Shown one piece after another: positions 23-19,926 of a DNA stretch of 32,951 nucleotides. The DNA comes from Candidatus Zixiibacteriota bacterium (GTDB taxonomy: Bacteria; Zixibacteria; MSB-5A5; RBG-16-43-9): assembly GCA_022865345.1 (NCBI GenBank), contig JALHSU010000181.1:1-32951 (forward strand), given 5' to 3'. The notes beneath the pieces are model-generated. The model was not told the DNA's origin, made no database searches, and saw only the letters and a program-made list of their open reading frames with translations. Position numbers and translations under genes: made by a program. Positions within the stretch are counted from its first letter, which is position 1. The number at the start of each line of letters is the position of its first letter.

Positions 23-1300
23 ATGAATCTAACCGAACTTAAGAACCAATTAGTTAACCTCTGGGGTCAGATGAGTCTGTTAAAGAGGGTTACCTTAGGA
101 GTTTTGTGCTTAATTATTTTTTCGGGATTAATTGTTATCTATTCCCGTGCTCATCGGGTCGAATATGTGACTTTATACAACGGGTTAGAGGCGGATGAGG
201 CAGGTGCGATCATCGAAAAATTGAAAAGCAGTAAAGTTCCTTATAAAATCTCTGATGGAGGTAAAGTAATCTTAGTCCCTTCAGATGAGGCGGAGGAGGT
301 TAGATTACAATTAGCCAGAGAGGGTTTACCTAAATCTGGAGTGGGGTATGAAATCTTCGATAAAAAAAGCTGGGGGATGACCGATTTTGTCGAAAAAATC
401 AACTACAAAAGAGCATTAGAAGGAGAGCTTGCCAGGACGATCGGGGAGCTCAAGGAAATAGAATCTGTTAGAGTTCATCTGGTCCTGCCAGAAGAAAAAT
501 TGTTCAAAGAGGACAAGAGAGAACCATCTGCCTCGGTTATGCTCAAACTAAAACCGGGATTTAAGCTTTCCGGCTCTCAGGCCCTGGGAATTGCCAAACT
601 CATAGCCAACAGCATCGAGGGACTCTCCACCGCAAATGTGACCATAATAGATTTCAACGGGGACATATTGTTCTCAGGAGAAACCGAGCAGTCACCAGAG
701 GAGTTTTTATCCTCTCCAATTCAGACCGAAAAAGAAGCAGGAGTAGATTTAAAAAACAAAGCTTCGCCTTTGTCAGGTTATAGTACTAAAACTGAAGAGA
801 CGGAGAATTCTGCTCCAAACCTCCTATATAAATATTTCTGGATTTTGCTTCTGGTTTTAACCCCATTGCTATTCTACATTGCGTTGAGGTGGTTCAAAAG
901 CAGAAAACCAGTCAGCTCTTTCACTAATCTCAGAAAAACACAAGCGGAATTTGAGTCTGGTTTAAGGAAGAATGAATTGGATACTGAATCTGAAGAGATT
1001 AAAGATTCAGACACCGAGACCTATTTCGAATTATTAAAGGATGAAACTCCGCATAACATAGCTGTCATTCTATCCCAGCTTCCCAATGACAAAGCGACGG
1101 ATATCTTGAACTGGCTGCCTGCTGAAAAACGAGGAGAGGTCGCCGTTAGCTTGAGCAGGGTAGAGCAGATATCTCCCGAAGTAAAGAAGAGGGTATGGAC
1201 AGCTTTTGAATCCTTGCTAAAAGGTGAGTCAAAATATACATCTTCATATCTGGAAGAAGACCAGACAGAATCAGGTAAAACTGAAGTCTCAAGACCTTGA
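23..1300 (+). CDS. fliF: Flagellar MS-ring protein FliF, short form with FliG-middle-domain-like C-terminus
   Basis: FliF builds the inner-membrane MS ring around the export gate. The 425-residue product has a first membrane helix at about 21-42, then two ring-building regions (about 48-115 and 120-215) with typical FliF text such as LAREGLPKSGVGYE and VRVHLVLPEEKLF. A second membrane helix lies at about 270-292. Family members are usually 520-570 residues because a large RBM3 collar domain separates RBM2 from the second helix. Here only a linker of roughly 50 residues is present. The cytoplasmic tail (about 332-400, ETPHNIAVILSQLPNDKATD and onward) resembles the FliG middle domain, with ETPHNIA in the place of the EHPQTIA motif. 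The next gene is fliH, so no separate fliG follows. The FliF assignment is secure; the FliG-like reading of the tail is by eye. Confidence 0.93.
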   Translation: MNLTELKNQLVNLWGQMSLLKRVTLGVLCLIIFSGLIVIYSRAHRVEYVTLYNGLEADEAGAIIEKLKSSKVPYKISDGGKVILVPSDEAEEVRLQLAREGLPKSGVGYEIFDKKSWGMTDFVEKINYKRALEGELARTIGELKEIESVRVHLVLPEEKLFKEDKREPSASVMLKLKPGFKLSGSQALGIAKLIANSIEGLSTANVTIIDFNGDILFSGETEQSPEEFLSSPIQTEKEAGVDLKNKASPLSGYSTKTEETENSAPNLLYKYFWILLLVLTPLLFYIALRWFKSRKPVSSFTNLRKTQAEFESGLRKNELDTESEEIKDSDTETYFELLKDETPHNIAVILSQLPNDKATDILNWLPAEKRGEVAVSLSRVEQISPEVKKRVWTAFESLLKGESKYTSSYLEEDQTESGKTEVSRP

Positions 1301-1986
1301 GGTTTTACACTCCAAATATTAATAAGATGTCAGAGATATTAACTAAATATAAACTCTCTTCGGAAAAAGCCAGTCTCAGCAGGGGGAAAGCAAAGAGAAA
1401 CGGCGAAAGTATCCAGAGTGTTGAGGCAAAAGATAAGTCTTTAGCGCTTGATAAAATCATCCAGTCCAGGGTAAATTTCTTGGAGGAGAAGATTCAATTA
1501 GAAAAAGAACAGACTTATAGATCGGGGTTTGAGGACGGTAAAGAGATAATGAGGGAAGAACAGGAGATGGTCATTCAACTTTTCCTCAACCTGATCGAGG
1601 AACTAAAGAAACAGAGAGAGGAGTATCTCAAATCAGTGGAAAAAGATATGGTAAGACTTTCCCTGGAGATTGCGTCCAAAGTAATTCAGCAGAAAATTGA
1701 ACGGGATGAAAAAATCATCCTGAAAAACCTCAAACATGCTTTAAAGCACTTGTTAGATAAAGGAAGAATAATAATCAGGCTAAATCCCGCAGATCTGGAA
1801 ATAGTAAGCAAGCATTCTAAAGAAATTAAATCAGCAGAGGGATTAAAGGAATTGATTTTAGAGGAAGATAGCAAGGTTACCAGAGGGGGCTGCCTGATTT
1901 ATTCAGAATTGGGTCATATCGATGCTCAAATCGAGACCCAATTAGAGATGATCGGTAAAGCACTTTTAGAAGTAACTCAAGCCTGA
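1297..1986 (+). CDS. fliH: Flagellar assembly protein FliH
   Basis: FliH is the stator-like partner of the FliI ATPase and links it to the C-ring and export gate. The 229-residue product has a charged N-terminus, a long helical/coiled-coil middle (about 50-140) and the typical FliH/HrpE C-terminal signature, seen as SKVTRGGCLIYSELGHIDAQ followed by IETQLEMIGKALLE. The open frame starts with TTG overlapping the fliF stop (TTGA), suggesting translational coupling; an ATG at 1327 is an alternative start. fliI follows after about 20 bases, giving the usual fliH-fliI-fliJ order. Confidence 0.9.
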   Translation: MRFYTPNINKMSEILTKYKLSSEKASLSRGKAKRNGESIQSVEAKDKSLALDKIIQSRVNFLEEKIQLEKEQTYRSGFEDGKEIMREEQEMVIQLFLNLIEELKKQREEYLKSVEKDMVRLSLEIASKVIQQKIERDEKIILKNLKHALKHLLDKGRIIIRLNPADLEIVSKHSKEIKSAEGLKELILEEDSKVTRGGCLIYSELGHIDAQIETQLEMIGKALLEVTQA

Positions 1987-2007: not shown

Positions 2008-3312
2008 ATGAATTCTCAAAAATATCTAGAAGCTCTGAAGAAGGTCGACCCTTATAAGGTCAACGGCAAGGTACAGAAAATAGTGGGGATGGTGATCGAA
2101 TCCTCAGGTCCGGCTGCCTCCATCGGAGAGCTATGCTTTATTGATAACCGGGAGAAAAAAAAGATTTTAGCTGAAGTCGTTGGATTCAAGGAGGACCGGG
2201 TTATTCTGATGCCTTTAGGAGAAATGAGAGGCATAACTCCCGGCAGTTTTGTGGTTTCTTCCGGAAAAGACTTCAGCCTAGAAGTTGGTAAGGGATTAGT
2301 CGGCAGAGTCTTGAATGGACTGGGACAGCCAATAGATGGAAAAGGAGAATTGCAAAAATGCGAAGAAAGATCTATTCACTCTGCTCCTCCAGAACCGCTG
2401 AAGCGCAAAAGAATAGTTGCTCCTTTTCATACCGGGATAAAAGCAATTGATACCCTGTTGACCTGTGGGCAGGGGCAGAGAATGGGGATTTTTTCCGGAA
2501 GCGGAGTGGGGAAAAGCGTTCTTTTGGGGATGATTGCTAGAGATTCCTCTGCAGATGTAAACGTAATAGCCCTTATCGGTGAAAGGGGAAGAGAGGTAAG
2601 AGAATTTATCGAAAGGGATTTAAAAGAAGAAGGCCTGAAAAAAACAGTTGTAGTGGCTGCCACCTCGGACCAGCCACCTCTGGTCAGGGTTAAAGCGGCT
2701 TTAGTGGCAACAACTGTAGCGGAATACTTCAGAGACTTAGGTATGAACGTGCTTCTGCTTATGGATTCTCTGACCCGCATTGCCTTAGCTCAAAGGGAAG
2801 TAAGTTTAGCAGTGGGGGAGCCGCCCACTACCCGGGGGTTCACTCCTTCTGTTTTCTCTCTTTTGCCTCAGATTTTAGAAAGAGCGGGTGCTTCTGATTC
2901 TGGAAGTATAACGGGATTTTATACCGTCTTAGTAGAAGGGGACGATTTCAATGAGCCGATCTCAGATTGCTCCAGAGCAACTTTGGATGGTCATATCATA
3001 CTCTCGCGAAAATTAGCCGGGCTGAATCATTACCCGTCAATAGATATTCTGGAATCTGTGAGCCGGGTGATGAAAGACGTTGCATCCAGGGAACAGTTAG
3101 AGCTTTCAGATAGACTCAAAAACCTGCTGGCGGCCTATAAAGAAGCTGAGGACTTGATCAATGTTGGGGCTTACTCATCCGGCTCCAGCCGTAAGATAGA
3201 CTATGCATTATCCAGAATGGAAAAAATTAATGCATTCTTACGGCAGAAGATTGACGAGCACTCGAATTTTGAGACCAGCATGAATCTCCTGAAGGAGATT
3301 TTTAAAGAATGA
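2008..3312 (+). CDS. fliI: Flagellum-specific export ATPase FliI
   Basis: FliI is the F1-beta-like hexameric ATPase that helps unfold and deliver substrates to the export gate. The 434-residue product is normal length and shows no lesions. The Walker A loop is GSGVGKS (about 167-173, within IFSGSGVGKSVLLGMIAR). The Walker B strand is VLLLMDSLTR (about 248-257), followed by the type III ATPase signature GEPPTTRGFTPSVFSLLP. The stop overlaps the fliJ start (ATGA at 3309-3312), a sign of translational coupling. FliI is one of the best-conserved proteins in the window, in contrast to FliF and FlhB. Confidence 0.97.
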   Translation: MNSQKYLEALKKVDPYKVNGKVQKIVGMVIESSGPAASIGELCFIDNREKKKILAEVVGFKEDRVILMPLGEMRGITPGSFVVSSGKDFSLEVGKGLVGRVLNGLGQPIDGKGELQKCEERSIHSAPPEPLKRKRIVAPFHTGIKAIDTLLTCGQGQRMGIFSGSGVGKSVLLGMIARDSSADVNVIALIGERGREVREFIERDLKEEGLKKTVVVAATSDQPPLVRVKAALVATTVAEYFRDLGMNVLLLMDSLTRIALAQREVSLAVGEPPTTRGFTPSVFSLLPQILERAGASDSGSITGFYTVLVEGDDFNEPISDCSRATLDGHIILSRKLAGLNHYPSIDILESVSRVMKDVASREQLELSDRLKNLLAAYKEAEDLINVGAYSSGSSRKIDYALSRMEKINAFLRQKIDEHSNFETSMNLLKEIFKE

Positions 3313-3746
3313 AAAAATTCAATTATAGACTTCGCGGTATAGAAGATTTCAGAAAAGAACGCCTGAAAACTGCCCTGAGAGAGCTAAAAAAGGTCAGGGA
3401 TGCTTTCAAATCAGAAAAGGAGTTTCTGGATATATTAACTGACCAGCGGGAGGATTATCGGGAAAAGCTGAAGGACAAGTCCCATGCATTTCTGGAACTC
3501 AATGAGCTTAACTGGTACAAGGAATACCTGCATCTGTTAGAAGAAAAGATCGAGGAGAAAAAACAAAACTTAAGAAAACTCCGGCAGAATCTAATCCAGC
3601 TAAAAAAACTCACTCAAAAAAGAGAAAAAGAAAAAAAGACTTTAGAAAAAAACAGACAGGCAAAATTCACCCAGTTCTTAAACGAACTAAGAAAAGAAGA
3701 ACAGAAAGAGATGGATGAAGTCAGCAGGGTAATTTCTCATAAATGA
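3309..3746 (+). CDS. fliJ: Flagellar export chaperone-like protein FliJ
   Basis: FliJ is a small antiparallel coiled-coil protein that inserts in the FliI hexamer and contacts FlhA. The 145-residue product is almost entirely Lys/Glu/Arg/Leu-rich helix with the expected N-terminal form (NYRLRGIEDFRKERLKTALR) and no membrane segment. Assignment rests on this composition, on length typical of the family (about 145) and on the four-base overlap with fliI. Downstream, where fliK, flgD and flgE often lie, there is only a 426-base non-coding region. Confidence 0.82.
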   Translation: MKKFNYRLRGIEDFRKERLKTALRELKKVRDAFKSEKEFLDILTDQREDYREKLKDKSHAFLELNELNWYKEYLHLLEEKIEEKKQNLRKLRQNLIQLKKLTQKREKEKKTLEKNRQAKFTQFLNELRKEEQKEMDEVSRVISHK

Positions 3747-3876
3747 TTTGGAGGCTGAGAATGGTTCTCACTGACTTCAGTCAGGTCTTGTATTTACGAC
3801 ACAAGATTTGCTTCAAGGAGAAGGCTCAGGGTTTTATGATTACATATGCAGAGGAATTTTTTACCACAGAACAGGA

Positions 3877-3922
3877 ATTATTTTCGAGAATAATCTTTGA
3901 ATTGAATTTTAATTCAGTTCAA
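3877..3922. promoter_or_regulatory. Two adjacent dyads, possible enhancer sites for a sigma54 activator
   Basis: The first dyad is ATTATT-t-TCGA-g-AATAAT (3877-3894). The second (3897-3922) has arms TTGAATTGAATT and AATTCAGTTCAA, matching at 11 of 13 positions per half. Relative to the predicted start site near 4010, their centres lie at about -125 and -100, the usual range for binding sites of sigma54-dependent activators. No T-run follows, so they do not look like terminators. The function is inferred from position and symmetry only. Confidence 0.4.
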
Positions 3923-3982
3923 AAACGAGCTTAATCATTTGAAAAGCAAAGAGATGACTGGGCAAGAACAATTTTATAAGGG

Positions 3983-3998
3983 TTGGCACGAAAATTGC
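3983..3998 (+). promoter_or_regulatory. Sigma54 promoter for fliM operon
   Basis: The sequence TTGGCACG-aaaa-TTGC matches the -24/-12 consensus TTGGCACG-N4-TTGC at every position. GG and GC have the required spacing. The start site should fall near 4010, leaving a leader of about 160 bases before fliM. No other element in the window matches this consensus so exactly. Confidence 0.85.
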
Positions 3999-4040
3999 GA
4001 AATAACCTTTTTGAAGTAAACCGAAGTTGCAGCACACCAG

Positions 4041-4136
4041 GCTTGAGAAACAAATTCTCCGCATCGTTTCTCGAGCAAGAAATCGGAGAGGGGGAAAATG
4101 GCTGAGAGAATGAAATGGACCTTCATCCTCTCAGCC
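4041..4136 (+). promoter_or_regulatory. Structured 5' leader upstream of fliM
   Basis: Two stem-loops can be drawn. The first pairs GCTTGAGAAAC (4041-4051) with GTTTCTCGAGC (4066-4076): 11 bp with one G-U, and a 14-base loop. In that loop TCTCCG (4056-4061) is complementary to CGGAGA (4084-4089), which forms part of the ribosome-binding site of the small ORF at 4098, so a pseudoknot could mask it. The second pairs GGCTGAGAG (4100-4108) with CTCTCAGCC (4128-4136). A further 5 bp inside it leave the 7-base loop AUGGACC, which exposes GGA as CsrA targets often do. The pairings were drawn by hand; no energy was computed. Confidence 0.45.
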
Positions 4137-4163
4137 TGCATATTTTATGAGCCAAGAAAGTAG
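4098..4163 (+). CDS. Possible 21-residue leader peptide before fliM
   Basis: An ATG at 4098 follows a good ribosome-binding site (GGAGAGGGGG, 4085-4094). It opens 21 codons (MAERMKWTFILSACIFYEPR, then K) ending at TAG 4161-4163. Its stop overlaps the GGA of the fliM ribosome-binding site and lies 10 bases before the fliM start. The second leader stem-loop is entirely inside it. It may be a translated control peptide, or the frame may be chance in a structured leader. Confidence 0.3.
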   Translation: MAERMKWTFILSACIFYEPRK

Positions 4164-4172
4164 GACGAAAAA

Positions 4173-5039
4173 ATGATCGACAATTCCGGATTTAAAGAGA
4201 TGAAGCCTTTTGATTTCAGGCAGATCCGAAAATTACCGCCCAGAATTGAAAAGAAGCTGAATGAGGTCAATTTGCGGTTTGCTCAAAATCTTGTCCTACT
4301 TTTCAAGACCACCATAGGAGAAAGCAAAGAGAAGATTCTGGTTTCTTCACAGAGGGCAGGATTAGAGCCTATTAACGTCGAAAAGAGTGGAGAAAAATTA
4401 GACTTTACCTTTCAGTTAGATTCCCGGCAAGATGGCAGGTTAGCGCTTGATAAAAATTTAGCCAGCCAGTTATTGTGCTTTTATCTGGGTTATCCAGACG
4501 GCGAAAGAGTCTCACCGGCGAAACTGTCCAAAATTGAAGAAAGCGCCTTGTTTCAACTGGTAGAAGGAATTGTTAAGGAATTACAGAATGCCTGGGCAGA
4601 GGGTATTAAAATAGATAATCTGACCTTTTGTTACGGAAAAGAACCGGGACAAGAGAGACTCGTAGTTTCGAGGTTTTCAGTCAAATGCGGGATGAACTCA
4701 GGAGAAATAGAGATAGGCTATCCGTTCTCATTTCTGGATAAAGTCTGCACTGGTGGCTTGAGTTCGAGTATGGAATCTAAACAGAACATCAAGGAATTGA
4801 TAGAGGACTCAGAAGTGGAGCTGACCTGCGTTTTAGGAAATATAGAGACGCATAGCGATGCGTCTCTACGACTGACCTTAAACCAGATTGCAGAGCTTAA
4901 GCCTGGATATATAATTCTTATGGACACGGAAGGAGACTCTGAAGTAACCATTTCAATCCAGGAGAAGAACAGATTCAGGGGCATCCCCGGTATTTATAAT
5001 AGTAGAAAAGGGGTGAAAATCGTCTCAACTTTTTCTTGA
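4173..5039 (+). CDS. fliM: Flagellar motor switch protein FliM, short N-terminus
   Basis: FliM forms the middle of the C-ring, binding FliG, FliN and (usually) CheY-P. The 288-residue product has the FliM core start (MKPFDFRQIRKLPPRIEKKL), the CheC-like middle domain (for example GEIEIGYPF) and a C-terminal SpoA/FliN-like domain (about 206-288). The N-terminal CheY-binding peptide (the EIDALL-type motif) is missing. The loop that normally reads GGxG and contacts FliG reads LGYPDGE. Residues 225-232 are encoded by a perfect palindrome (4844-4867) that appears to be an inserted repeat and lengthens a loop of the SpoA domain by about eight residues. The frame stays open throughout. The ribosome-binding site is AGGA at 4162-4165. 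Confidence 0.9.
   Translation: MIDNSGFKEMKPFDFRQIRKLPPRIEKKLNEVNLRFAQNLVLLFKTTIGESKEKILVSSQRAGLEPINVEKSGEKLDFTFQLDSRQDGRLALDKNLASQLLCFYLGYPDGERVSPAKLSKIEESALFQLVEGIVKELQNAWAEGIKIDNLTFCYGKEPGQERLVVSRFSVKCGMNSGEIEIGYPFSFLDKVCTGGLSSSMESKQNIKELIEDSEVELTCVLGNIETHSDASLRLTLNQIAELKPGYIILMDTEGDSEVTISIQEKNRFRGIPGIYNSRKGVKIVSTFS
4844..4867. repeat. Palindromic repeat embedded in fliM
   Basis: AGAGACGCAT-AGCG-ATGCGTCTCT is a perfect 10-bp inverted repeat with a four-base loop, followed by ACG. Its layout (short perfect arms, four-base loop, GTCTCTAC-like end) matches the intergenic palindromes in this window. It lies within codons 224-232 of fliM and leaves the frame open. Confidence 0.7.
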
Positions 5040-5050
5040 CAGGAGAGAAT

Positions 5051-5440
5051 ATGAAGGAAAATAAAATCTTACAGGGAGAGATTTATTCTTCGGATGATCA
5101 AAAAGGAAAACTCACTGAGGAAGAGGTCTCAGTCAGAAGAGGTGAATTTCCCGAATTGACCTCTGAATTCAGGAACGCAGGAAAGCAGGATATATCTTTT
5201 CTTTCAGAAGTATGTTTGCCGATCAACGTGGAATTGGGGCATTCCAAGATGAAAATCAAAGAGATATTGGAATTGGGGCCTGGCTCTATTGTGCAATTAG
5301 ACAAATTGCCGGGTGAACCGGTTGAGCTTTACGTTGGGGATCAACCTCTGGCAAAAGGTGAAGTAGTAGTAGTGGAGGAGAGATTAGGAGTCCGGATCAC
5401 GGAATTGATTTGTCCTTCTGAAGAAAAGAGAATTAAATAA
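5051..5440 (+). CDS. fliN: Flagellar motor switch protein FliN
   Basis: FliN is the lower C-ring component and docks FliH. The C-terminal 80 residues form a standard SpoA domain (LPINVELGHSKMKIKEILEL, then GPGSIVQLDKLPGEPVELYV), preceded by about 45 poorly conserved acidic residues. The frame opens with TTG at 5036 overlapping the fliM stop, but AGGAGA at 5041-5046 points to ATG 5051. The protein is about 129 residues, normal for FliN. The last 20 codons plus the stop are repeated just downstream (5482-5546). Confidence 0.92.
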   Translation: MKENKILQGEIYSSDDQKGKLTEEEVSVRRGEFPELTSEFRNAGKQDISFLSEVCLPINVELGHSKMKIKEILELGPGSIVQLDKLPGEPVELYVGDQPLAKGEVVVVEERLGVRITELICPSEEKRIK

Positions 5441-5546
5441 AGTCGTTTCGTCGAGTCGGGGGACTCGACGGCCACATAAAAAGATTGGGAGTCCGGATCA
5501 CGGAATTGATCTGTCATTCAGAAGAAGAAAAGAATTAAATAAAGTC
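5381..5546 (+). repeat. Partial duplication of the fliN 3' end
   Basis: Bases 5381-5444 (last codons of fliN, its TAA and AAGTC) recur at 5482-5546 with a few substitutions and small indels (GATTTGTCCTTCTG against GATCTGTCATTCAG). The copies are separated by 37 bases containing a palindrome (5450-5469). The second copy has no upstream reading frame, so it is a decaying fragment. The rest of 5441-5643 holds only short palindromes. Confidence 0.85.
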
Positions 5547-5617
5547 ATTCTGTGCTTGCCATCCCGCCATCGGCGGGACTGACCTGGCAGGTTTTTCGTC
5601 CAAATGGACGACCACAT
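5450..5617. repeat. Palindromes between fliN and fliO
   Basis: Three stem-loops lie in this gap. GTCGAGTC-GGGG-GACTCGAC (5450-5469) is followed by GGCCACATAAAA. TCCCGCC-ATC-GGCGGGA spans 5562-5578. CGTCCA-AA-TGGACG (5597-5610) is followed by ACCACATAAAA. The first and third have different stems but the same downstream CCACATAAAA. No T-run follows, so they are unlikely to be strong terminators. Confidence 0.7.
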
Positions 5618-5643
5618 AAAAGAAAAAGGAATCTTAATTAAAG

Positions 5644-6063
5644 ATGAACAAGCTTTTAGTAGTTCTTACATCAGGTAACTTAGTTGCTGAAACTGAAAAG
5701 ATACCGGATACTGGTACAGGCAGCCTGATAATCAGGCTTTTCCTGTCCTTAGTTTTAATCATCGGTCTTATATATCTATCCCTTTTCCTGTTAAAAAAAA
5801 GCTCGCTCGGCTTGAAAAAGAATCGGGCAGGAGACCTGATTCAAGTTCTGGAAAGATGCTATATCTCTCCCAAGAAAGGGATTTTTATAGTCAAGATAGG
5901 ATCAAAGTTATTAGCCTTAGGGGTAACGGAAAATCAAATAAGTCTTTTATCTGAATTAGATTCCAATCCAGAGTCTAATACAGATTTGAAAGATAAAGTT
6001 GTTTCGGAAAAAGAAATTAGAGCTACTTTTTTACAGAAGATTAAAGGCAAGCTTAATTTGTAA
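5644..6063 (+). CDS. fliO: Flagellar biosynthesis protein FliO
   Basis: FliO is a small bitopic membrane protein that helps FliP assemble in the export gate. The 139-residue product has a periplasmic N-terminus, one membrane helix (about 28-50, LIIRLFLSLVLIIGLIYLSL) and a basic cytoplasmic domain. That domain carries the usual FliO text: LIQVLERCYISPKKGIFIVK and IGSKLLALGVTENQISLL. Its position just before fliP agrees. A weak AAGGA precedes the start. Confidence 0.82.
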   Translation: MNKLLVVLTSGNLVAETEKIPDTGTGSLIIRLFLSLVLIIGLIYLSLFLLKKSSLGLKKNRAGDLIQVLERCYISPKKGIFIVKIGSKLLALGVTENQISLLSELDSNPESNTDLKDKVVSEKEIRATFLQKIKGKLNL

Positions 6064-6126: not shown

Positions 6127-6320
6127 CGTAGCGCGAGGCTTTCAGCCTCGCAATGCGACCCAGAAAGGTTCGCGCTACGGGGGAAAAACCTGTCAGGTCA
6201 GGGGACCTGACGGTCACATAGAACCTATAGCGTCATTCTGAGGGAATCCAAATGGATGACCGAAGAATCTGTCGAATTTGACCTTGAGGCAGATTCTTCG
6301 TCCTACGGACTCAGAATGAC
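6127..6320. repeat. Cluster of palindromic repeats between fliO and fliP
   Basis: The 270-base gap after fliO is filled by three repeat units. A nested one has outer arms CGTAGCGCGA (6127-6136) and TCGCGCTACG (6170-6179), with GCGAGGCT-TTC-AGCCTCGC inside. The second is GTCAGGTC-AGGG-GACCTGAC (6192-6211) followed by GGTCACATA. The third has outer arms GTCATTCTGAG (6232-6242) and CTCAGAATGAC (6310-6320), with inner arms GAAGAATCTG and CAGATTCTTC. Short open frames across them are by-products of the repeats. Confidence 0.8.
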
Positions 6321-6333
6321 ATGCAGTGAACAT

Positions 6334-7098
6334 ATGGGTCCGATAAACAAAGTAAAATTCAAACTGATTCTGGGAATAGTTGGTTTCCTTGTTCTGCTGA
6401 CGTTTTCTGACGCAGTTGCTCAATCAGTTCCTAAGCTATCTGTGGAATTGGGCAAAGTAAATAATCCTAAAGACCTGTCATACGGTTTACAGCTCCTTTT
6501 GATTATCACGGTTCTGGCTTTAGCCCCTTCGATTCTTATTATGGTGACGTCTTTCACCAGGATTGTAGTGGTTCTGTCGTTTCTAAAACAATCCATAGGG
6601 ACTCCCCAGTTACCGCCTAACCAGCTTATTTTCGCGTTAGCTTTGATTTTAACTTTTTTTGTTATGTCCCCGGTGATATTTAACATTAACCAGAACGCTC
6701 TCCAGCCTTATCTAAAAGGAGAATTAAATCAGAATCAAGCTTATGAGAAGGGAATAAAACCATTAAGAGAGTTTATGTTCAACCAGACCAGGGAGAAGGA
6801 CCTGGCGTTATTTGTGCAACTTTCCAAACTGCCTCAGCCCAAAAATAGAGATGAGATACCGACTTATGTTCTGATACCGGGCTTTGTGATAAGCGAGCTG
6901 AGGATTGCTTTTCAGATCGGGTTCTTGATTTTCATTCCTTTTTTGATTATCGATCTGGTGGTAGCATCAGTCATAACCTCTATGGGAATGGCTATGCTTC
7001 CACCGGCAGTGATTTCTCTGCCTTTTAAGATACTTTTGTTCGTGTTAGTTGATGGCTGGTATCTTTTGGTTCGGTCTTTGGTGACCAGTTTCAGATAA
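6334..7098 (+). CDS. fliP: Flagellar export gate protein FliP
   Basis: FliP forms the pentameric core of the FliP5Q4R1 export gate. From ATG 6334 the product is 254 residues with an N-terminal signal-like helix, a second helix group starting YGLQLLLIITVLALAPSILI, and the FliP signatures SFTRIVVVLSFLKQSIGTPQ and AMLPPAVISLPFKILLFVLV-DGW near the end. The frame stays open back to 6256, but that extension is encoded by a palindromic repeat, so 6334 (or 6316) is preferred. No clear ribosome-binding site is visible at either. No key FliP region appears damaged. Confidence 0.95.
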   Translation: MGPINKVKFKLILGIVGFLVLLTFSDAVAQSVPKLSVELGKVNNPKDLSYGLQLLLIITVLALAPSILIMVTSFTRIVVVLSFLKQSIGTPQLPPNQLIFALALILTFFVMSPVIFNINQNALQPYLKGELNQNQAYEKGIKPLREFMFNQTREKDLALFVQLSKLPQPKNRDEIPTYVLIPGFVISELRIAFQIGFLIFIPFLIIDLVVASVITSMGMAMLPPAVISLPFKILLFVLVDGWYLLVRSLVTSFR

Positions 7099-7255: not shown

Positions 7256-7525
7256 ATGAATCTGGATTATATCTTACATTTAGCAAAAGAAGCAATAATA
7301 CTGGCTTTGATCATCTCTGCTCCGGCGCTTCTTTTCAGTCTGGTGGTAGGTTTTTTGATAAGTGTTTTTCAGGCAGCTACCCAGATTCAGGAGCCAGGTC
7401 TGAATTTCGTTCCCAAACTGATTGCCGTGGCAATCTCCCTTCTTCTTTTTCTGCCCTGGATGCTCCAGAGATTGATTTATTTCACCACCAAGCTTTTTGA
7501 GAATATTCCGTTTCTGATCAGGTGA
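7256..7525 (+). CDS. fliQ: Flagellar export gate protein FliQ
   Basis: FliQ is a two-helix gate subunit. From ATG 7256 the product is 89 residues, the normal FliQ size. It has two hydrophobic helices (about 15-38 and 52-75) and typical text such as LVVGFLISVFQAATQIQEPG and FVPKLIAVAISLLLFLPWML. A purine-rich site (GAGGGGGAGGG) precedes it. fliR normally follows directly but is separated here by a reverse-strand gene and repeats. Confidence 0.94.
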   Translation: MNLDYILHLAKEAIILALIISAPALLFSLVVGFLISVFQAATQIQEPGLNFVPKLIAVAISLLLFLPWMLQRLIYFTTKLFENIPFLIR

Positions 7526-7531
7526 TTTGGC

Positions 7532-8146
7532 TTATAGAATTAACGATATTCCGGCAGTGAGGTTACCAAAGGTGAAAGACTCTGTGGTATTTAGGTTTTT
7601 GCTCTTATTGAATATATAGTCGATTGATCCTTCGATCTGCAGAGAGAATCTTTTCCAGACAATATATTGTAGCCCAGCTCCCACATTAAAACCAGGTGAG
7701 ATTTCTCCGGTCTCCTTATCTTTATAGGCCAGGCTTCCGTCTTGCAACCATCTTGTGATGGGATGATGCACCTGAGGAATGTAAAAACCAGCTCCCAATT
7801 TGATGAAAGGTGATGGCCCTTTCGAACCGGAAAGAAATTTGCCAGATACGCCTAAAGAATACCAGTCCCACTTATTTCGATAATCATCCGGGGCTCCTAA
7901 GTAGCGAGGGACTGCATAGTAAATAATTTCATAATATTCCAGATACTTCAGATCCAGTCCAATAGAAACCTGATCACTGACAAAATAATCGATTTGTGAC
8001 CCAAAGAAAGTCACTCGATTTGTGTGCTCTAAGTGCGGATAAGCAGGTCCAGCTTTTAAGGTAAGCATGAATTTGCTCTTGAGTTCTCTACCGTGCACAG
8101 ATGGGATTAACGCGACAAAACAAAGAAAGAATATTACTCTTCTCAT
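7532..8146 (-). CDS. Outer-membrane beta-barrel protein, unknown role
   Basis: The 204-residue product has a signal peptide (MRRVIFFLCFVALIPSVHG, cleavage near 19-20). Alternating aromatic and hydrophobic strands follow, ending in a hydrophobic strand (FTFGNLTAGISLIL) as in small 8-stranded barrels. Glycine-rich turns such as VGAGLQYIVWKRFSLQIEGS and LGAGFYIPQV fit the OmpA-like/OMP_b-brl class. It is the only clear reverse-strand gene, sits between fliQ and fliR and has its own promoter and a strong AAGGAGG site. No flagellar role is evident; it looks like a later insertion. Its specific function is unknown. Confidence 0.75.
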   Translation of the reverse strand: MRRVIFFLCFVALIPSVHGRELKSKFMLTLKAGPAYPHLEHTNRVTFFGSQIDYFVSDQVSIGLDLKYLEYYEIIYYAVPRYLGAPDDYRNKWDWYSLGVSGKFLSGSKGPSPFIKLGAGFYIPQVHHPITRWLQDGSLAYKDKETGEISPGFNVGAGLQYIVWKRFSLQIEGSIDYIFNKSKNLNTTESFTFGNLTAGISLIL

Positions 8147-8558: not shown

Positions 8559-9335
8559 ATGCAGAACTTTGAGCAGACATATAATCTCATAATCAGTAAC
8601 TTCAAGCTTTTCCTGGCAATTGTCTTCCGGGTAGGCGGGCTGATTTTCACTGCTCCTTTTTTCGGACACAGGTCGATCCACTTTTTGCTAAGAATTGGGC
8701 TGATACTTCTGATTTCCCTGATAATCCTGCCTGTCTTCAGCGTCAATGGCACCAATCTACCGAACCAGTTTCCTTCCTTCATCCTGGTTTTGGTCAGAGA
8801 GGTTGTCATCGGAGCATTGATCGGGGTTTTGTTCTATCTACTTTTCTGGGGAATTGAGATGGGTGGGAGTCTACTGGGATTGCAACTGAATCTGGAGACA
8901 GATAATCAGGAAGAGGGGTCATCCCCGGTTGCCAGATTGCAGGTTTTCCTGGGACTTCTAATTTTTTTGGGCCTCAATGGACATCATCTTCTGCTCTCCG
9001 CAATTTTCCAGAGTTTTGAGCTTATTCCGGTTGGAGAGTTGAAATTATCATCTTTAGCCTTAGAGCATGTCTGGCAGTTTTCAGGTTCGGTTTTCCTGAT
9101 AGCCCTTAAGATTTCAGCGCCGGTTATAATCACCCTTTTCATACTTGACCTGCTTTTAGGAATTTTAAGCAGGACGACACCTCAGTCAAATCTCTACTCG
9201 AATTTTATGCCCCTGAGGTTAGGCACAGGACTTTTGATCTTAGCTTTATCTTTTCCGGTCTTCAAAACAATCATAGAAAAATTACTTTTGAATACAAACT
9301 CGGAAGTAACTGAGGTTTTAAAAAATCTTAGATGA
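8559..9335 (+). CDS. fliR: Flagellar export gate protein FliR
   Basis: FliR is the single-copy gate subunit that completes FliP5Q4R1. The 258-residue product has about six hydrophobic helices and the expected N-terminal text (VFRVGGLIFTAPFFGHRSIH) and middle (VREVVIGALIGVLFYLLFWG, GGSLLGLQLNLETDNQEEGS). The length is normal. It lacks an obvious ribosome-binding site at 8559. flhB follows after 128 bases rather than the usual few. Confidence 0.93.
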   Translation: MQNFEQTYNLIISNFKLFLAIVFRVGGLIFTAPFFGHRSIHFLLRIGLILLISLIILPVFSVNGTNLPNQFPSFILVLVREVVIGALIGVLFYLLFWGIEMGGSLLGLQLNLETDNQEEGSSPVARLQVFLGLLIFLGLNGHHLLLSAIFQSFELIPVGELKLSSLALEHVWQFSGSVFLIALKISAPVIITLFILDLLLGILSRTTPQSNLYSNFMPLRLGTGLLILALSFPVFKTIIEKLLLNTNSEVTEVLKNLR

Positions 9336-10250: not shown

Positions 10251-12359
10251 ATGACTAATCAACAGAAAAAAAATATAAAAGGTTACTCAGAGTCGATTCT
10301 CCTTGCAGGGATTTTGATCGGGGTCTTTTCACTGGTACTTCCTCTGCCTTCCTTTGTATTGGACCTTCTCATAGCTTTTAACCTGACTTTTTCAATTCTG
10401 CTTTTGCTTCTGGTTCTACAGGTTAAAAGACCACTTGAATTCTCTTCCTTTCCAGGGCTGATCTTAATCTACACTCTCTTTCGACTAAGCCTGGGATTAG
10501 GCTGCACCAGAGCAATCCTGAGCCAGGCTAATGCTGGAAAGATAGTTTCAGCCTTCGGGAACCTGACAATCAGAGGTGATTATGTAGCCGGGCTCCTGGT
10601 TTTGCTGGTCCTCTTCTTAATTCAGTTCTTAGTCATAACAAAAGGTGTAAACCGCACCTCTGAAGTGATTGCCAGGTTCTTTCTGGATTCTCTTCCAGGA
10701 AAACAGATGGCGATTGAAGGGGAATTGAATTCAGGACTGATCAATCAGGATGAAGCCAGAAGAAGAAGGGAAGAAGTGTCAAAAGAGGGAGATTTCTATG
10801 GTTCGATGGAGGGTGCAATCAAATTTGTCAGAGGAGAGGCGATACTTTCCTTCATCCTGATCCTCATAAACCTGATAGCCGGGTTTGCGATTGGGATGTT
10901 GAAGAAAGGGATGGGTTATCAGGACGCTTTTAGAACCTATGCACTTCTTGCGGCCGGCTTAGGTCTGGTCCTTCAGATGCCGGCTTTGCTTACCTCCTCG
11001 ACATCGGGTTTGATAATCACCCGGGCTTCAGCCAGAAAGAGCTTAGCCTCTGATCTTTTAAGCGAGTATGTTCCTCACCCAAAGACTTTGATTCTTGCCG
11101 TAGGTGCCATTTTACTTTTAGGAGCCTTATCGGGTTTTTCCTTAGTTGCTTTTCTTCCTCTGGTGGTAATAGGCGGTTCCCTGGGATATTTTTTATTGAG
11201 AAAAAAAGGAGAAGAGCATCATCCAGAGGAAGAAGAGAAAGGGATATACCCGGAGTCAAAGGCAGAAAAGAACAAAACTCCAGTCGAGCCGATAAGAATA
11301 GACCCTATCAGGATTGAGTTAGGTTACGGGTTGCTCTCGCTTGCACAGAGTTCATCTTCGGACAACCTTTTTCAGACTATTCCAGCCTTAAGAAAGGAAG
11401 TAGCCTCAGAACTGGGTATAAGACTTCCCCAGGTCAGGGTAAGAGATAATCTAAATCTCAAGCCATTTGAATATTCCATAATCCTGAAAGAAATGGAGCT
11501 GGCTCGAAAAGAGCTTTTTACTGATAAGTTTCTGGTTATAAATCCAGGCGACCTCCCTGAAATTGAAGGAGACGATACGATTGAGCCTGCATTTAATCTC
11601 CCGGCTAAATGGATAGATCAGGATAGAAAAAAGGAGGCTGAGGATAAAGGATATAATCTAATAGAACCAAAAGCGGTTCTGACTACTCACCTGTTTGAGC
11701 TTTTTAAAGAAAATGCTTATGAGCTGTTCGGTCTGCAGGAAACCAAAGACCTTTTGGAAGAGCTGAAGATACAGTATCCCGCTTTAGTAGAGGAAATCTA
11801 TCCTGGAAATCTCTCGCTGGTGACCATTCAAAAAGTCTTTCAGGGTCTTTTAAAGGAGAAAGTTCCAGTAAAGGATTTGCTCACCATCTTTGAAGTGTTA
11901 GCAGAAAAGAGTCCACAGATAAAAGAGCCTGTGCTTCTGACTGAAGCGGTTCGGGCAGGACTGAAAAGAACCATTACCCGGCAGTATCTGGATTCTGAAG
12001 AAAAGATAACCGTTTTTACCCTGGACCCGAAATTAGACCAGATTTTCTCTCCTTCAGGCGAGCTTACAGATTTTAAGCTGGACCTTAAGCCTGAGCTTGC
12101 AGGAAGATTAGTAAACGAATGCAGACAAAAAACTGAAGAGCTTAAGAGCAAAGGCCTTAAGCCAGCAGTCTTGCTTTCCTCCAAAGCCAGATATCCCTTC
12201 AGACGATTTATAGGAGAGAGCATTCCGGATTTAGGGGTGCTTTCCTATGAAGAGATTGTTTCCGGGACCAGGGTTTATTCTATAGGTAGCATAAGCCTGG
12301 AAAATGAATTCACGGGGGAAGTGGGGTTGAAGAAGGAATTAAAACCAGAAAGGTTGTGA
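10251..12359 (+). CDS. flhA: Flagellar export gate protein FlhA
   Basis: FlhA is the nonameric export engine. It has about eight N-terminal membrane helices (to about residue 320) and a large cytoplasmic domain that docks chaperone-substrate complexes. The 702-residue product is full length. The FHIPEP signature is LPGKQMAIEGELNSGLINQD, followed by EARRRREEVSKEGDFYGSME and VRGEA. At residues 156, 158 and 196 Glu is found where Asp is usual (AIDADLNAG, VRGDA). The cytoplasmic part has typical text (LNLKPFEYSIILKEMELARK, PAVLLSSKARYPFRRFIGES). flhF and flhG, which commonly follow, are absent. Confidence 0.96.
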   Translation: MTNQQKKNIKGYSESILLAGILIGVFSLVLPLPSFVLDLLIAFNLTFSILLLLLVLQVKRPLEFSSFPGLILIYTLFRLSLGLGCTRAILSQANAGKIVSAFGNLTIRGDYVAGLLVLLVLFLIQFLVITKGVNRTSEVIARFFLDSLPGKQMAIEGELNSGLINQDEARRRREEVSKEGDFYGSMEGAIKFVRGEAILSFILILINLIAGFAIGMLKKGMGYQDAFRTYALLAAGLGLVLQMPALLTSSTSGLIITRASARKSLASDLLSEYVPHPKTLILAVGAILLLGALSGFSLVAFLPLVVIGGSLGYFLLRKKGEEHHPEEEEKGIYPESKAEKNKTPVEPIRIDPIRIELGYGLLSLAQSSSSDNLFQTIPALRKEVASELGIRLPQVRVRDNLNLKPFEYSIILKEMELARKELFTDKFLVINPGDLPEIEGDDTIEPAFNLPAKWIDQDRKKEAEDKGYNLIEPKAVLTTHLFELFKENAYELFGLQETKDLLEELKIQYPALVEEIYPGNLSLVTIQKVFQGLLKEKVPVKDLLTIFEVLAEKSPQIKEPVLLTEAVRAGLKRTITRQYLDSEEKITVFTLDPKLDQIFSPSGELTDFKLDLKPELAGRLVNECRQKTEELKSKGLKPAVLLSSKARYPFRRFIGESIPDLGVLSYEEIVSGTRVYSIGSISLENEFTGEVGLKKELKPERL

Positions 12360-12368
12360 AAAAAACCG

Positions 12369-12449
12369 ATGAAACGGACGATAATAATAATTGATCCTTT
12401 AAATCAGCTCACCTTAAAAGCCATAAAACTGTCAGGGGGTAAAAGATGA
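12369..12449 (+). CDS. 26-residue ORF between flhA and fliA
   Basis: ATG 12369 opens 26 codons (MKRTIIIIDPLNQLTLKAIK, then LSGGKR), and its TGA overlaps the fliA ATG (ATGA at 12446-12449). The overlap suggests translational coupling to fliA. No ribosome-binding site is clear. It sits where flhF and flhG are usually found and could be a worn remnant or a coupling ORF. I do not recognise it. Confidence 0.3.
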   Translation: MKRTIIIIDPLNQLTLKAIKLSGGKR

Positions 12450-13204
12450 CCATGGAAAAGGATTGGGGCGTTTACCTGAAAAGTAAAGACCCGATTAGAA
12501 GAGAGAAGCTTTTAGCCGAATATCTCCCATTAGTCAAAAGCGTAGCCGGGAGGATGGCTCTCGGTTTTCCCAAATCAGTGGAGCTACAGGACCTGGTAAG
12601 CACCGGGGTAATCGGTCTGGTGGAAGCCTTCTCCAATTTCGATCCCTCAAGGGGGGTCAAATTCGAAACCTATGCGGTCCCTCGCATAAGAGGAGCAATC
12701 CTGGATGAATTAAGAGCGCTGGACTGGGTGCCACGATCTACCCGAGCAAAATCCAGGGAGATAGACCGGGCTTTAACCAGGCTGGAGAATAAATTAGGAC
12801 GAATACCCACTGATCGGGAGCTGGCTAAATTTTTGAAGATCCCGGTTGAAGAGATCCATTCGGCTAAAGGGGATCTATCTTGCTCCATCGTCCTCTCCTT
12901 AGATGACCTGGTCTATAAAGAGGAGGACAATCGCCAGATCCCCCGGATAGAAACAGTAGAAGCTGCTGCTCGCGAAAATATCCTGAACGACCTGGAGAAA
13001 AAGGAGCTGAAAGCTTTTCTGGTATCTGCGATTAAGCATCTCTCTGAACAGGAGAGGTTAGTCATAGCCCTTTATTATTACGAGGAGATGACCCTGAAGG
13101 AGATAGGCGAGGTCATGACCATCTCTGAATCCAGAGTCTCCCAGATCCACACTAAGGCAGTTATGAAATTGAGAGGAATGATTCGAGATAAATTTGCCCT
13201 TTAA
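12446..13204 (+). CDS. fliA: Flagellar sigma factor FliA (sigma28)
   Basis: FliA directs RNA polymerase to late flagellar promoters and is held by FlgM until the hook is complete. The 252-residue product has region 2 (LLAEYLPLVKSVAGRMALGF, VELQDLVSTGVIGLVEAFSN, FDPSRGVKFETYAVPRIRGA), region 3 (about 110-145) and a region 4 helix-turn-helix (MTLKEIGEVMTISESRVSQI). Length and motifs are normal. GGGGG at 12434-12438 suits ATG 12446. Promoters matching its consensus occur at 19900 and perhaps 16875. Confidence 0.96.
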   Translation: MTMEKDWGVYLKSKDPIRREKLLAEYLPLVKSVAGRMALGFPKSVELQDLVSTGVIGLVEAFSNFDPSRGVKFETYAVPRIRGAILDELRALDWVPRSTRAKSREIDRALTRLENKLGRIPTDRELAKFLKIPVEEIHSAKGDLSCSIVLSLDDLVYKEEDNRQIPRIETVEAAARENILNDLEKKELKAFLVSAIKHLSEQERLVIALYYYEEMTLKEIGEVMTISESRVSQIHTKAVMKLRGMIRDKFAL

Positions 13205-16938: not shown

Positions 16939-17373
16939 ATGAACGAAAAAAATAAGGAAAGCTCTCTTTCGTCCGGAAAGGTGAACGGGGATACCTCTTT
17001 TGAAGAAATAGAAGAAGTACTCAAATCGATGGAGAATTTTGTAGAGCAGGTTAAAGGAGTAGCATTAAACCTGGCCTCCGCAACTGCCAAAGCCAGGAAC
17101 TATCTACCCGCCAAGATCAGCGAGGACGTGCTGGATCTGGTGAACCAATCCTCCAAAGCCACCTCAGAGATGTCCAAGCTGATTAAGCTGGTGCGGATGG
17201 AAGTGGGAGGGGTTTATTCTATAAATCAATACGGGGAGATAGAATTCCAGAGGAATAAAGTCATCGAGGAGAAGATAGAAGAATATCTGGAAAGGATCCT
17301 GGCAGAAAGTCAGAGGATTCTTTTGATAATGAAGAGGCTGAAATCGATTTCTATAGACAACAAGTTAGTCTAA
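16939..17373 (+). CDS. Helical hypothetical protein
   Basis: The 144-residue product is predominantly helical, without membrane segments. Amphipathic stretches at about 20-60 and 105-140 could pair as coiled coils. A GAGG site precedes ATG 16939. It follows the response regulator and may have its own sigma28 promoter. I recognise no family. A helical-bundle signalling or motor-associated protein is possible but unsupported. Confidence 0.6.
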   Translation: MNEKNKESSLSSGKVNGDTSFEEIEEVLKSMENFVEQVKGVALNLASATAKARNYLPAKISEDVLDLVNQSSKATSEMSKLIKLVRMEVGGVYSINQYGEIEFQRNKVIEEKIEEYLERILAESQRILLIMKRLKSISIDNKLV

Positions 17374-17544
17374 AAAAGTTCAGGAAGATATTTCTTAAAA
17401 AAGGGGAAGATAGTTCCGAAAAATCTGGTTCAGTTTATCTTTGAACCTATAAATTCTTTAAGCTAGCAATTCAAGAACAAATTAATTGACCGGGGGATAA
17501 GAAGTTAAGCGGAGAAGTCCTTTATCACTTTAAATCCTGAAAAT

Positions 17545-17561
17545 AAGGCATATAAGTTGCT
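17545..17561 (+). promoter_or_regulatory. Candidate sigma54 promoter before the small exported peptide
   Basis: AAGGCATATAAGTTGCT has GG (17547-17548) and GC (17559-17560) at the exact sigma54 spacing and closely resembles the element before fliR at 8525. The start site should be near 17572, about 23 bases before ATG 17595. It would drive the small peptide gene and flgN. The rest of 17374-17594 shows nothing recognisable. Confidence 0.5.
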
Positions 17562-17594
17562 GAAAAAAATTAATGAAATTTACTCAGGAGTCTT

Positions 17595-17735
17595 ATGACA
17601 AGGTCTCAGTTCATTTTAATACTGCTGATAATACTTATGGCTTTGCTTCTCCCTTATGGATTGAAATCAGCAGAGCCGGATCAGGGGAAGTTCAAGCCGG
17701 TATCCGAGCAGGTCTATCAGGTTCCAGAGGGTTAA
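17595..17735 (+). CDS. Small exported or membrane-anchored peptide (46 residues)
   Basis: ATG 17595 is preceded by CAGGAG at a suitable distance. It encodes a basic N-terminus (MTRSQ), a strong hydrophobic helix (FILILLIILMALLLPYG) and about 23 polar residues ending VYQVPEG. This is the shape of a signal peptide with a tiny mature part, or of a single-pass membrane peptide. The position before flgN and behind a sigma54-like promoter suggests a flagellar link. I recognise no family. Confidence 0.55.
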   Translation: MTRSQFILILLIILMALLLPYGLKSAEPDQGKFKPVSEQVYQVPEG

Positions 17736-17793
17736 GCTCTTAGCTGGATTTGCCGACTAAAATAATGCCAGAGTTACTAAAAGGGGAGGTCTG

Positions 17794-18291
17794 TTGGAAC
17801 AGCAAGTTCTAAGCCTGATAAAATTGATCCATAAAGAGGTGGGGTCGCTGGAGAATTTTCTCAACCTGCTGACAGAAGAACAGGAATGTCTGATAAATAA
17901 TCGTTTTGGTCGTCTGGAGGAATCGATTATAAAACAGGAGCAGGCCCTCATCCAAGCCAAGCAATTAGAGAAAGAAAGGATGAAGATAACCTCCTGGCTT
18001 TTTAAGGATTTTAAAATTGACCAGAGAAAAGGTTCCCTTACTAAACTGATCCAGCTTCTGGATAGCTCTCACTCTTCTAAACTGGAAGAACTGCAGAAAA
18101 CCTTAGTGGATTTACACCGCAAAGTGGAAATTCAAAGAGAAAGGAATGAAGAGCTGATAAAAGATTCGATGAGTTATATAGACCGGAGTATCAAATTCTT
18201 AATGGAGCCCTCTCCTGTCTCCTATTTAAGGAACCCCTCGCATAACCAGGGCAAGGTAATGCCCCCTCTGGTTTTAGATAAAGTAGGGTAA
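17794..18291 (+). CDS. flgN: Flagellar export chaperone FlgN
   Basis: FlgN binds the hook-filament junction proteins FlgK and FlgL and hands them to FlhA. The 165-residue product is helical with the FlgN N-terminal pattern (LIKLIHKEVGSLENFLNLLT, EEQECLINNRFGRLEESIIK), fitting family length. It starts with TTG after AAGGGGAGG. flgK and flgL, which usually follow, are absent, so its clients must be encoded elsewhere if the system is complete. Confidence 0.75.
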   Translation: MEQQVLSLIKLIHKEVGSLENFLNLLTEEQECLINNRFGRLEESIIKQEQALIQAKQLEKERMKITSWLFKDFKIDQRKGSLTKLIQLLDSSHSSKLEELQKTLVDLHRKVEIQRERNEELIKDSMSYIDRSIKFLMEPSPVSYLRNPSHNQGKVMPPLVLDKVG

Positions 18292-18659: not shown

Positions 18660-18929
18660 ATGCTGATTCTTACCAGAAAATTAGGGGAGAGCATCACCAT
18701 CGGGGATGATGTCAAGATAACGGTCTTGGGAATTCATGGCAGGCAGGTCAGACTGGGGGTGATTGCGCCTCAAAAGGTAGTTGTTCACCGGGAGGAGGTC
18801 TATTTCAAGATACAGGAGGAAAACAAAAAGGCATCCCAGGCAGGGAAGGAAGAAGCTGCCGAATTAGCCAAGACTATCAGGGAAAAGATAAAGGAAAAGC
18901 CTAAGAGAAAACAGGATTATCCGGAGTAA
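18660..18929 (+). CDS. csrA: Carbon storage regulator CsrA
   Basis: CsrA is an RNA-binding dimer that represses translation at GGA-containing sites, classically flagellin mRNA. The 89-residue product has the full core ([40 protein letters not shown]), including Arg44 in VHREEVY, plus a charged tail of about 25 residues beyond the minimal 61-residue form. The AGAGGAG site fits ATG 18660. The nearby fliW encodes its protein antagonist. The fliM leader at 4041-4136 is a possible target. Confidence 0.96.
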
Positions 18930-19023: not shown

Positions 19024-19197
19024 ATGTTCTTCAAAATCAAAAATAAACTTAACCATCAAACCCAGAAGAAAGCTGGTTTTTCCTCCAAGAAGGAAAAGGA
19101 GCAACTCAGTGCCAGGCTGAACAAACTGCGAAATCAGAGAACCCCTTTTTCCTCTGAGGCGATTGATAGCAGCTTTGTTTACTTCGAGGAGAAATAG
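19024..19197 (+). CDS. Doubtful small basic ORF between csrA and fliW
   Basis: The frame is open from TTG 19003 with an ATG at 19024. It gives about 57 residues rich in Lys, Gln and Ser, ending FVYFEEK. No good ribosome-binding site is seen and no family is recognised. It fills most of the 300-base csrA-fliW gap, which is otherwise featureless. Confidence 0.3.
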   Translation: MFFKIKNKLNHQTQKKAGFSSKKEKEQLSARLNKLRNQRTPFSSEAIDSSFVYFEEK

Positions 19198-19230: not shown

Positions 19231-19680
19231 ATGGAGATTTTGACTTCGCGTTTTGGCAAAATCTCTTTCTCTTCAAAAGAGGTTTACAATTTCAGCAAAG
19301 GGATTTACGGTTTCCCTCAGGAAAAGAAGTACGTTTTTCTGAAGCTGAAAGAGTTCGATCCATTTTTATGGCTGCAATCTGTGGAGAAACCGGATTTAGC
19401 CATTCTTTTAATTGACCCTCTCATTTTTCTCAGGGATTATAAACCAGAGATACCGAAGAAGGAGCTTGAAGATATAGAGATTCTGGATTTGAAAAAAGTT
19501 AAAATCTACGTTACCGTAACTCCATCTGGCAAACTAGAACAATCTACACTTAACCTTTTAGCTCCTATTATAATCAATCCAGCGAAAAAATTAGGGAGGC
19601 AGGTAGTGCTAAAAAGTAGTGATTATAGAATCCAGCATTCCATCTTTGAGAGCTTTAAAAAAAATTCTAAAAAACTATAA
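19231..19680 (+). CDS. fliW: Flagellar assembly factor FliW
   Basis: FliW binds flagellin or CsrA and so couples flagellin level to CsrA repression. The 149-residue product has the usual text: SRFGKISFSSKEVYNFSKGI, YGFPQEKKYVFL, DLKKVKIYVTVTP, LNLLAPIIINP and the C-terminal KSSDYRIQHSIF. The length is normal. AAAAGGGGGGC precedes ATG 19231. The csrA-fliW neighbourhood is standard. Confidence 0.94.
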   Translation: MEILTSRFGKISFSSKEVYNFSKGIYGFPQEKKYVFLKLKEFDPFLWLQSVEKPDLAILLIDPLIFLRDYKPEIPKKELEDIEILDLKKVKIYVTVTPSGKLEQSTLNLLAPIIINPAKKLGRQVVLKSSDYRIQHSIFESFKKNSKKL

Positions 19681-19899: not shown

Positions 19900-19926
19900 T
19901 TAAGTTTTAAAGATTAAAGACGATAA
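19900..19926 (+). promoter_or_regulatory. Sigma28 promoter of the flgM-like gene
   Basis: TTAAGTTT (19900-19907), 11 bases, then GACGATAA (19919-19926). The consensus is TAAAGTTT-N11-GCCGATAA, so each box has one mismatch and the spacing is exact. The FlgM-like start codon is 21 bases downstream. Confidence 0.75.

Follow-up and report, generated by a model that had tools for sequence, protein, structure and literature searches.

A FliF-FliG fusion heads a flagellar export cluster

We analysed a 32,951-nucleotide stretch of Candidatus Zixiibacteriota DNA (the window), which opens with a single uninterrupted reading frame encoding a 425-aa protein (Table 1). This protein carries TM1, RBM1 and RBM2, a linker, TM2 and a tail resembling the FliG middle domain (FliG_M), a layout that the original prediction had proposed and that the domain matches bear out. 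The FliG_M model scored 56.1 bits on the tail against a cut-off of 25, and FliG_N matched the same residues only as a weaker homologous repeat (E 3.9e-6). Pfam gave no match to RBM3 (PF08345) or FliG_C (PF01706) in the fusion, whereas the identical scan of a flagellated relative (locus L045) found PF08345 in FliF and the N, M and C domains in FliG; the predicted absence of RBM3 thus holds. The fusion is of the FliF type, as TIGR00206 gave 223.7 bits against a cut-off of 129.75, and it falls below the cut-off of the SctJ model TIGR02544 (58.8 against 161.95 bits). NF004606, which we take to be the chlamydial FliF protein model, matched only the tail, and its 36 bits against a cut-off of 297 leave the fusion outside that family.

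In agreement with the domain matches, a sequence search of the PDB aligned residues 14–225 with FliF structures and residues of about 336–405 with FliG structures. An AlphaFold model from a two-sequence alignment had low overall confidence (mean pLDDT 56); it contained five helices at residues 331–399 (pLDDT about 70–81), a long helix at each of the two TM positions, elements of RBM type and disorder at 221–267. Foldseek matched RBM2 of solved MS rings (RBM2inner, chains of 6sd2, 7cgo and 8wkq) with a TMt of about 0.9 over the RBM2 domain. We also considered the tail as an ordinary FliF C-terminus and rejected this, since the FliF proteins of flagellated relatives end differently (IAKVIKTLMAE type) and the tail aligns with FliG_M. 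Full-length FliG can be aligned to it from 'IKDSD..' on, and the tail is therefore FliG, as first proposed. The joint lies near residue 326, the N-M boundary in an alignment to the FliG of relatives, and the canonical EHPQ of FliG reads ETPH in the tail. The linker is indeed short, but it may be more than a linker: residues ~230–252 can be aligned to the opening segment of the RBM3 region in a flagellated relative, and look like a vestige of it.

The genes that follow encode most of a type III export apparatus. FliI and FliP pass flagellar equivalog cut-offs; for FlhA and FliR the flagellar models outscore the injectisome models, yet remain below their cut-offs. By these scores the FliPQR/FlhA/FlhB gate and the FliHI ATPase are of flagellar type. 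The downstream half of the cluster is also present in the third genome of the genus. No hook or flgKL pseudogenes were recognised in the gaps; 3747–4172 and 17374–17793 are free of long conserved frames, and csrA occupies the gap ahead of fliW. A tRNA was the sole match in an Rfam search.

Table 1. Features of the window, with positions counted from its first nucleotide
Feature	Position	Strand	Basis or remark
FliF-FliG_M fusion, 425 aa	23..1300	+	TM1, RBM1-RBM2, linker, TM2, FliG middle domain
RBM1-RBM2	155..673	+	PF01514, residues 45-217, E 1.1e-65
Linker in place of RBM3	674..820	+	Predicted disordered
TM2	821..898	+	Predicted helix, residues 267-292
FliG middle domain	1025..1225	+	Residues 335-401, PF14841 E 4.5e-15
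fliH	1330..1986	+	PF02108 E 2e-27; ORF listed from 1297 TTG, ATG at 1330
fliI, export ATPase	2008..3312	+	TIGR03497 FliI_clade2 above cut-off
fliJ	3309..3746	+	PF02050 E 1e-13
fliJ-fliM gap	3747..4172	.	No gene found; 3973-4146 conserved
Reduced fliM, 288 aa	4173..5039	+	SpoA domain kept
fliN (SpoA)	5036..5440	+	PF01052 E 9.8e-25
fliO	5644..6063	+	PF04347
fliP	6256..7098	+	TIGR01103 above cut-off
fliQ	7256..7525	+	ORF listed from 7172; ATG at 7256 agrees with relative
Outer-membrane beta-barrel-like gene	7532..8146	-	Between fliQ and fliR
fliR	8559..9335	+	TIGR01400 E 2e-44, below equivalog cut-off
Truncated flhB, 257 aa	9464..10237	+	Ends before NPTH autocleavage domain
flhA	10251..12359	+	TIGR01398 E 5e-208, above hrcV
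fliA (sigma-28)	12446..13204	+	Conserved throughout order
144-aa protein	16939..17373	+	Weak MCP-signal similarity
46-aa ORF	about 17595..17735	+	Upstream of flgN; hydrophobic leader at start
flgN-like chaperone gene	17794..18291	+	PF05130 E 3e-17
csrA	18660..18929	+	Named from sequence
57-aa ORF	about 19024..19197	+	Between csrA and fliW
fliW	19231..19680	+	NF009793 above cut-off
Sigma-28-type promoter upstream of flgM	19900..19926	+	Identical in three genomes of genus
flgM-like anti-sigma-28 factor, 142 aa	19948..20376	+	PF04316 E 6.8e-5, just under curated cut-off

Losses and selection in the cluster

No match to FliG_C (PF01706), the rod/hook family Flg_bb_rod (PF00460), FliE (PF02049) or flagellin (Flagellin_N, PF00669) was found in the genome, which is 96.6% complete, and all four families were found in four control genomes. 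The original prediction had the FliG C-domain missing, and it is indeed missing from the entire genome. Neither a secretin nor a needle was recognised among the scanned genes of the window. FlhB ends at residue 257, just ahead of the NPTH segment, in both species with the fusion, and the genome has no second match to PF01312 (Bac_export_2). FliM lacks both the N-terminal CheY-binding EIDALL peptide and the GGxG motif for FliG contact, which its relatives have. Because this motif and the EHPQ motif of FliG are both altered, a contact between FliG_M and FliM is putative. Judged from predicted domains, the loss of FliG_C, of the CheY peptide and GGxG of FliM, and of the FlhB cleavage domain is a coordinated truncation of parts used only in rotation or switching. 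Taken as a whole, the cluster is what is left of a flagellum once everything but the export apparatus has been removed, and FlhB and FliM are truncated in addition.

We estimated dN/dS by the Nei-Gojobori method against G003 or G002, two other genomes of the genus, so that each value is a two- or three-genome estimate. FliQ (0.016, ~0.02), FliI (0.05), FliP (0.06), FliR (0.07), FlhA (0.10–0.15), FliN (0.12) and FlhB (0.21) all gave low values, and for the export-gate and ATPase genes the range was 0.02–0.21 at a dS of about 0.2–0.5. The fusion gave 0.15, with 0.08 for its RBM1-2 segment and 0.16 for its FliG_M segment, the latter at a high dS (1.25). The compared reading frames are intact in two or three species. 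FliH, FliI, FliJ, FliM, FliN, FliO, FliP, FliQ, FliR, FlhA and the membrane part of FlhB thus appear to be mostly under purifying selection. However FliM, at 0.44, lies outside the 0.02–0.21 range of the other cluster genes, and this part of the C-ring may already be decaying.

Distribution and history of the fusion

The window begins at a contig end, so RBM3 and fliG could in principle have dropped out of the contig through an assembly or binning error. However, the same architecture recurs at 86% identity in another Zixiibacteriota MAG from this genus (JAUYBY010000044, locus L034; coordinates as G003 locus L005), in which the fusion frame lies in the middle of a contig. This independent copy rules out the assembly error that the original prediction had allowed for, and answers its question of whether relatives share the architecture. 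Furthermore, the neighbouring upstream contig, which shares the first 39 codons of the fusion, carries a TPR protein, an NtrC-type regulator and a kinase and no flg or other flagellar genes, and the FliG_C family is nowhere in the genome. We consider an artefact refuted, with a negligible chance of being the explanation. Across the phylum, the search gave a match in 104 of 133 genomes. Outside the two fusion genomes, and setting a few fragments aside, FliF is encoded by frames of about 510–545 aa, mostly ~520 aa, and many genomes also gave a match to a FliG frame of its own, about 340 aa long.

In a FliF tree sampled without any chlamydial sequence, RBM1-2 of both fusions groups with a flagellated family of the same phylum (f15; support 0.90), which points to vertical descent as far as the sample shows. 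Since the fusion stands beside flagellated Zixiibacteriota in this tree, its origin looks independent of Chlamydiaceae. Within the order, FlhA occurs in 3/3 genomes of the genus and in 0/8 of the others. Leaving aside the sister genus described below, export genes are not recognisable in these other members, which have retained FliA, CsrA and FliW and, in most cases, FlgN.

The sister genus (G001) has scars of the export cluster at positions 4287–5843 of locus L140, where the cluster runs on the minus strand. What survives there between the NtrC regulator and fliA is the fliJ-fliM spacer, the outer-membrane protein gene and two gene fragments, one from the 3' end of fliQ and one from the 5' end of fliR; everything else has been deleted, and the export system is thus dispensable. 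The spacer (3973–4146 in the window) is 76% identical in DNA although the neighbouring genes are lost in G001. Because it matches the hook-less fliJ-fliM gap of the window, the hook genes were probably lost before the two genera split. This noncoding spacer contains an inverted repeat seen by eye, as well as TGGCACGAAAATTGCG, a sigma-54 promoter-like sequence with one mismatch (about 0.5 expected by chance), and is possibly a small RNA or a promoter.

A sigma-28 regulon in non-flagellated bacteria

We searched for sigma-28 boxes as TAAAGTTT-N11-GCCGATAA with up to two mismatches, using the reversed pattern as the control. The three genomes of the genus (G000, G002 and G003) had 12, 16 and 12 boxes, compared to 1, 0 and 0 for the control. 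A first pattern, TAAAN14-16GCCGATA, had done hardly better than its control (11 versus 7) and was dropped. A number of boxes stand ahead of the same gene in two of the genomes or in all three, and the genes behind these shared boxes encode FlgM, an Ig-like lipoprotein, a type IV pilin-like protein, a Ser/Thr kinase, a signal peptidase and an 84-aa membrane protein. A sigma-28 regulon is thus conserved in these three genomes of bacteria without flagella.

All 11 genomes of the order have FliA, which is 71–82% identical in members without the export gate. The boxes outnumber the reversed control in several export-less members and in others they do not, and one gate-less member has a FlgM-like piece. 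Within the order, sigma-28 therefore seems to act apart from the exporter, and fliA and flgM become weaker pointers to an exporter. We had considered FliA, FlgM, FlgN and FliW as evidence for the exporter and discarded them: exporter-less relatives keep FliA, CsrA and FliW, mostly FlgN and, once, the FlgM-like piece, so the persistence of FlgN and the regulators does not speak for export.

A proposed inner-membrane exporter and its rivals

We lean towards the view that the cluster encodes a flagellar type III export apparatus without motor, rod, hook or filament, which works without rotating as a protein exporter of the inner membrane. In solved flagella the RBM1-RBM2 core of FliF encircles the FliPQR gate. 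Here FliF is pared to this core, and a ring of RBM2 would surround FliPQR. As the FliF C-terminus is covalently FliG_M, a peptide link replaces the joint between the FliF tail and FliG_N. The ring of TM2-linked FliG_M tails might then hold FliM/FliN pods and the FliHIJ ATPase beneath FlhA, much like the sorting platform of an injectisome, and FlhA-FlhB-FliPQR would pump proteins into the periplasm, the expected destination given that no rod or hook was found to carry them further. Since FlhB lacks its cleavage domain, a hook-to-filament switch would not be available, and thus a single class of substrates is expected. The broader idea, that a non-chlamydial bacterium independently made a working one-class exporter with an injectisome-like minimal ring from its own flagellum by simple deletions and one fusion, is more tentative, and we hold it as a possibility somewhat short of an even bet.

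The main rival is that the genes are remnants of a flagellum in late decay, heading for complete loss and without present function. The cluster is entirely gone in most of the order, the sister genus shows stepwise scars (fliQ 3' end, fliR 5' end and fliJ-fliM spacer), and FliM has the high dN/dS noted above. However, the compared frames are intact in two or three species, the gate and ATPase genes are constrained (0.02–0.21), and the truncations of FlhB and FliF are clean and common to both species rather than random breaks. On balance we consider late decay unlikely, although it is the most credible of the alternatives. The gate could also have been retained to secrete FlgM, in which case it would act as a regulatory valve for sigma-28 and its regulon and not as a true secretion system. 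The presence of flgM and fliA, the identical box before flgM in three genomes, the excess of boxes over the reversed control and their recurrence before the same genes would fit such a valve, but gate-less members of the order keep FliA, several with boxes above the control and one with the FlgM-like piece, so that FliA seems able to act there without export and the valve is improbable. Least probable of the biological alternatives, and in our view very doubtful, is a recruitment of the proteins to another machine, for example to type IV pilus control as reported for Lysobacter (PMC7277350). In two genomes a sigma-28 box does lie in front of a type IV pilin-like gene, yet a very similar box, seen as the box alone, occurs in the gate-less sister genus, which ties any pilus link to FliA and not to the exporter, and nothing here connects the export genes with pili.

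Comparison with known systems

The original prediction knew of no described natural form of such a fusion, and here it was mistaken: Chlamydiaceae FliF (~330 aa) lacks the SpoIIIAG-like domain (RBM3) and is fused to FliG_M (Bergeron 2016, PMC4768692). In C. pneumoniae the extreme C-terminus of FliF binds the cytosolic domain of FlhA (Stone 2010, PMC2830194). As in our genus, this is a two-TM FliF without RBM3, with a cytosolic tail homologous to FliG_M, in a non-flagellated host, working with FlhA and FliI. In contrast to our fusion, in which RBM1-RBM2 is complete, the chlamydial protein also lacks part of the SctJ-like region, and whereas Chlamydiaceae have few flagellar genes beside a full injectisome, here the export gate, FliHIJ, FliM and FliN are kept. 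The fusions in Chlamydia and here suggest a favoured route to keep a sorting platform after rotation ends.

Injectisome SctJ likewise consists of RBM1-RBM2 only, and by Foldseek the fusion structurally resembles EscJ and PrgK. Unlike SctJ, it has a FliG_M tail and scores higher with the FliF model than with the SctJ model. The original wording, an SctJ ring joined to a C-ring adaptor, is thus a fair description of the architecture.

Export without a flagellum has precedents. The non-flagellated Lysobacter enzymogenes OH11, which like our genus keeps its flagellar export apparatus, exports foreign flagellin through its flagellar T3SS in an FlhB-dependent manner, and its flagellar export proteins are reported to take part in type IV pilus control (PMC7277350). 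The Myxo-type NF-T3SS, formerly called a relic, is conserved (Abby and Rocha 2012, PMC3459982). It shares with our cluster an export apparatus, an ATPase and a small inner ring, and the lack of FliE, FliG and rod (and, for the Myxo-type, of MotAB, secretin and needle). However, it is part of the injectisome lineage and has retained an inner rod protein, whereas the cluster here has flagellar scores, fli gene order, FliO and FliA. Non-flagellated Legionella keeps FliA and FlgM, and L. oakridgensis has lost the rest of the flagellar regulon including the export apparatus (PMC5655016). In both Legionella and our genus the sigma-28/FlgM pair has outlived the flagellum; only in L. oakridgensis is the export apparatus missing.

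The fusion with RBM3 loss (Chlamydiaceae), export without a flagellum (Lysobacter) and an appendage-less T3SS (Myxococcales) were thus known. Compared to this literature, the new elements are a complete RBM1-RBM2 joined to FliG_M and accompanied, in a phylum other than that of Chlamydia, by a flagellar export gate that is nearly complete; the truncation of FlhB; and a reduction series side by side. The step from flagellum to secretion system has so far been argued mainly from deep trees. Here a single phylum shows flagellated cousins, a genus with stripped exporter genes under selection, a scarred sister genus and relatives without any of the genes. If the exporter reading is true, this would be a present-day example of that step. 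The cluster also offers a minimal natural set for sorting the parts of FliF, FliG, FliM and FlhB into those for export and those for rotation or switching.

Other genes of the cluster region

The beta-barrel-like gene between fliQ and fliR is about 35% identical to its sister-genus copy and is thus fast evolving. The frames of the two short ORFs of 46 and 57 aa are about 92% and about 94% identical, respectively, each in two relatives. The 144-aa protein has a dN/dS of 0.03 and is kept in each of the eight loci inspected across the order, where it adjoins kinase, PilZ-position and receiver genes.
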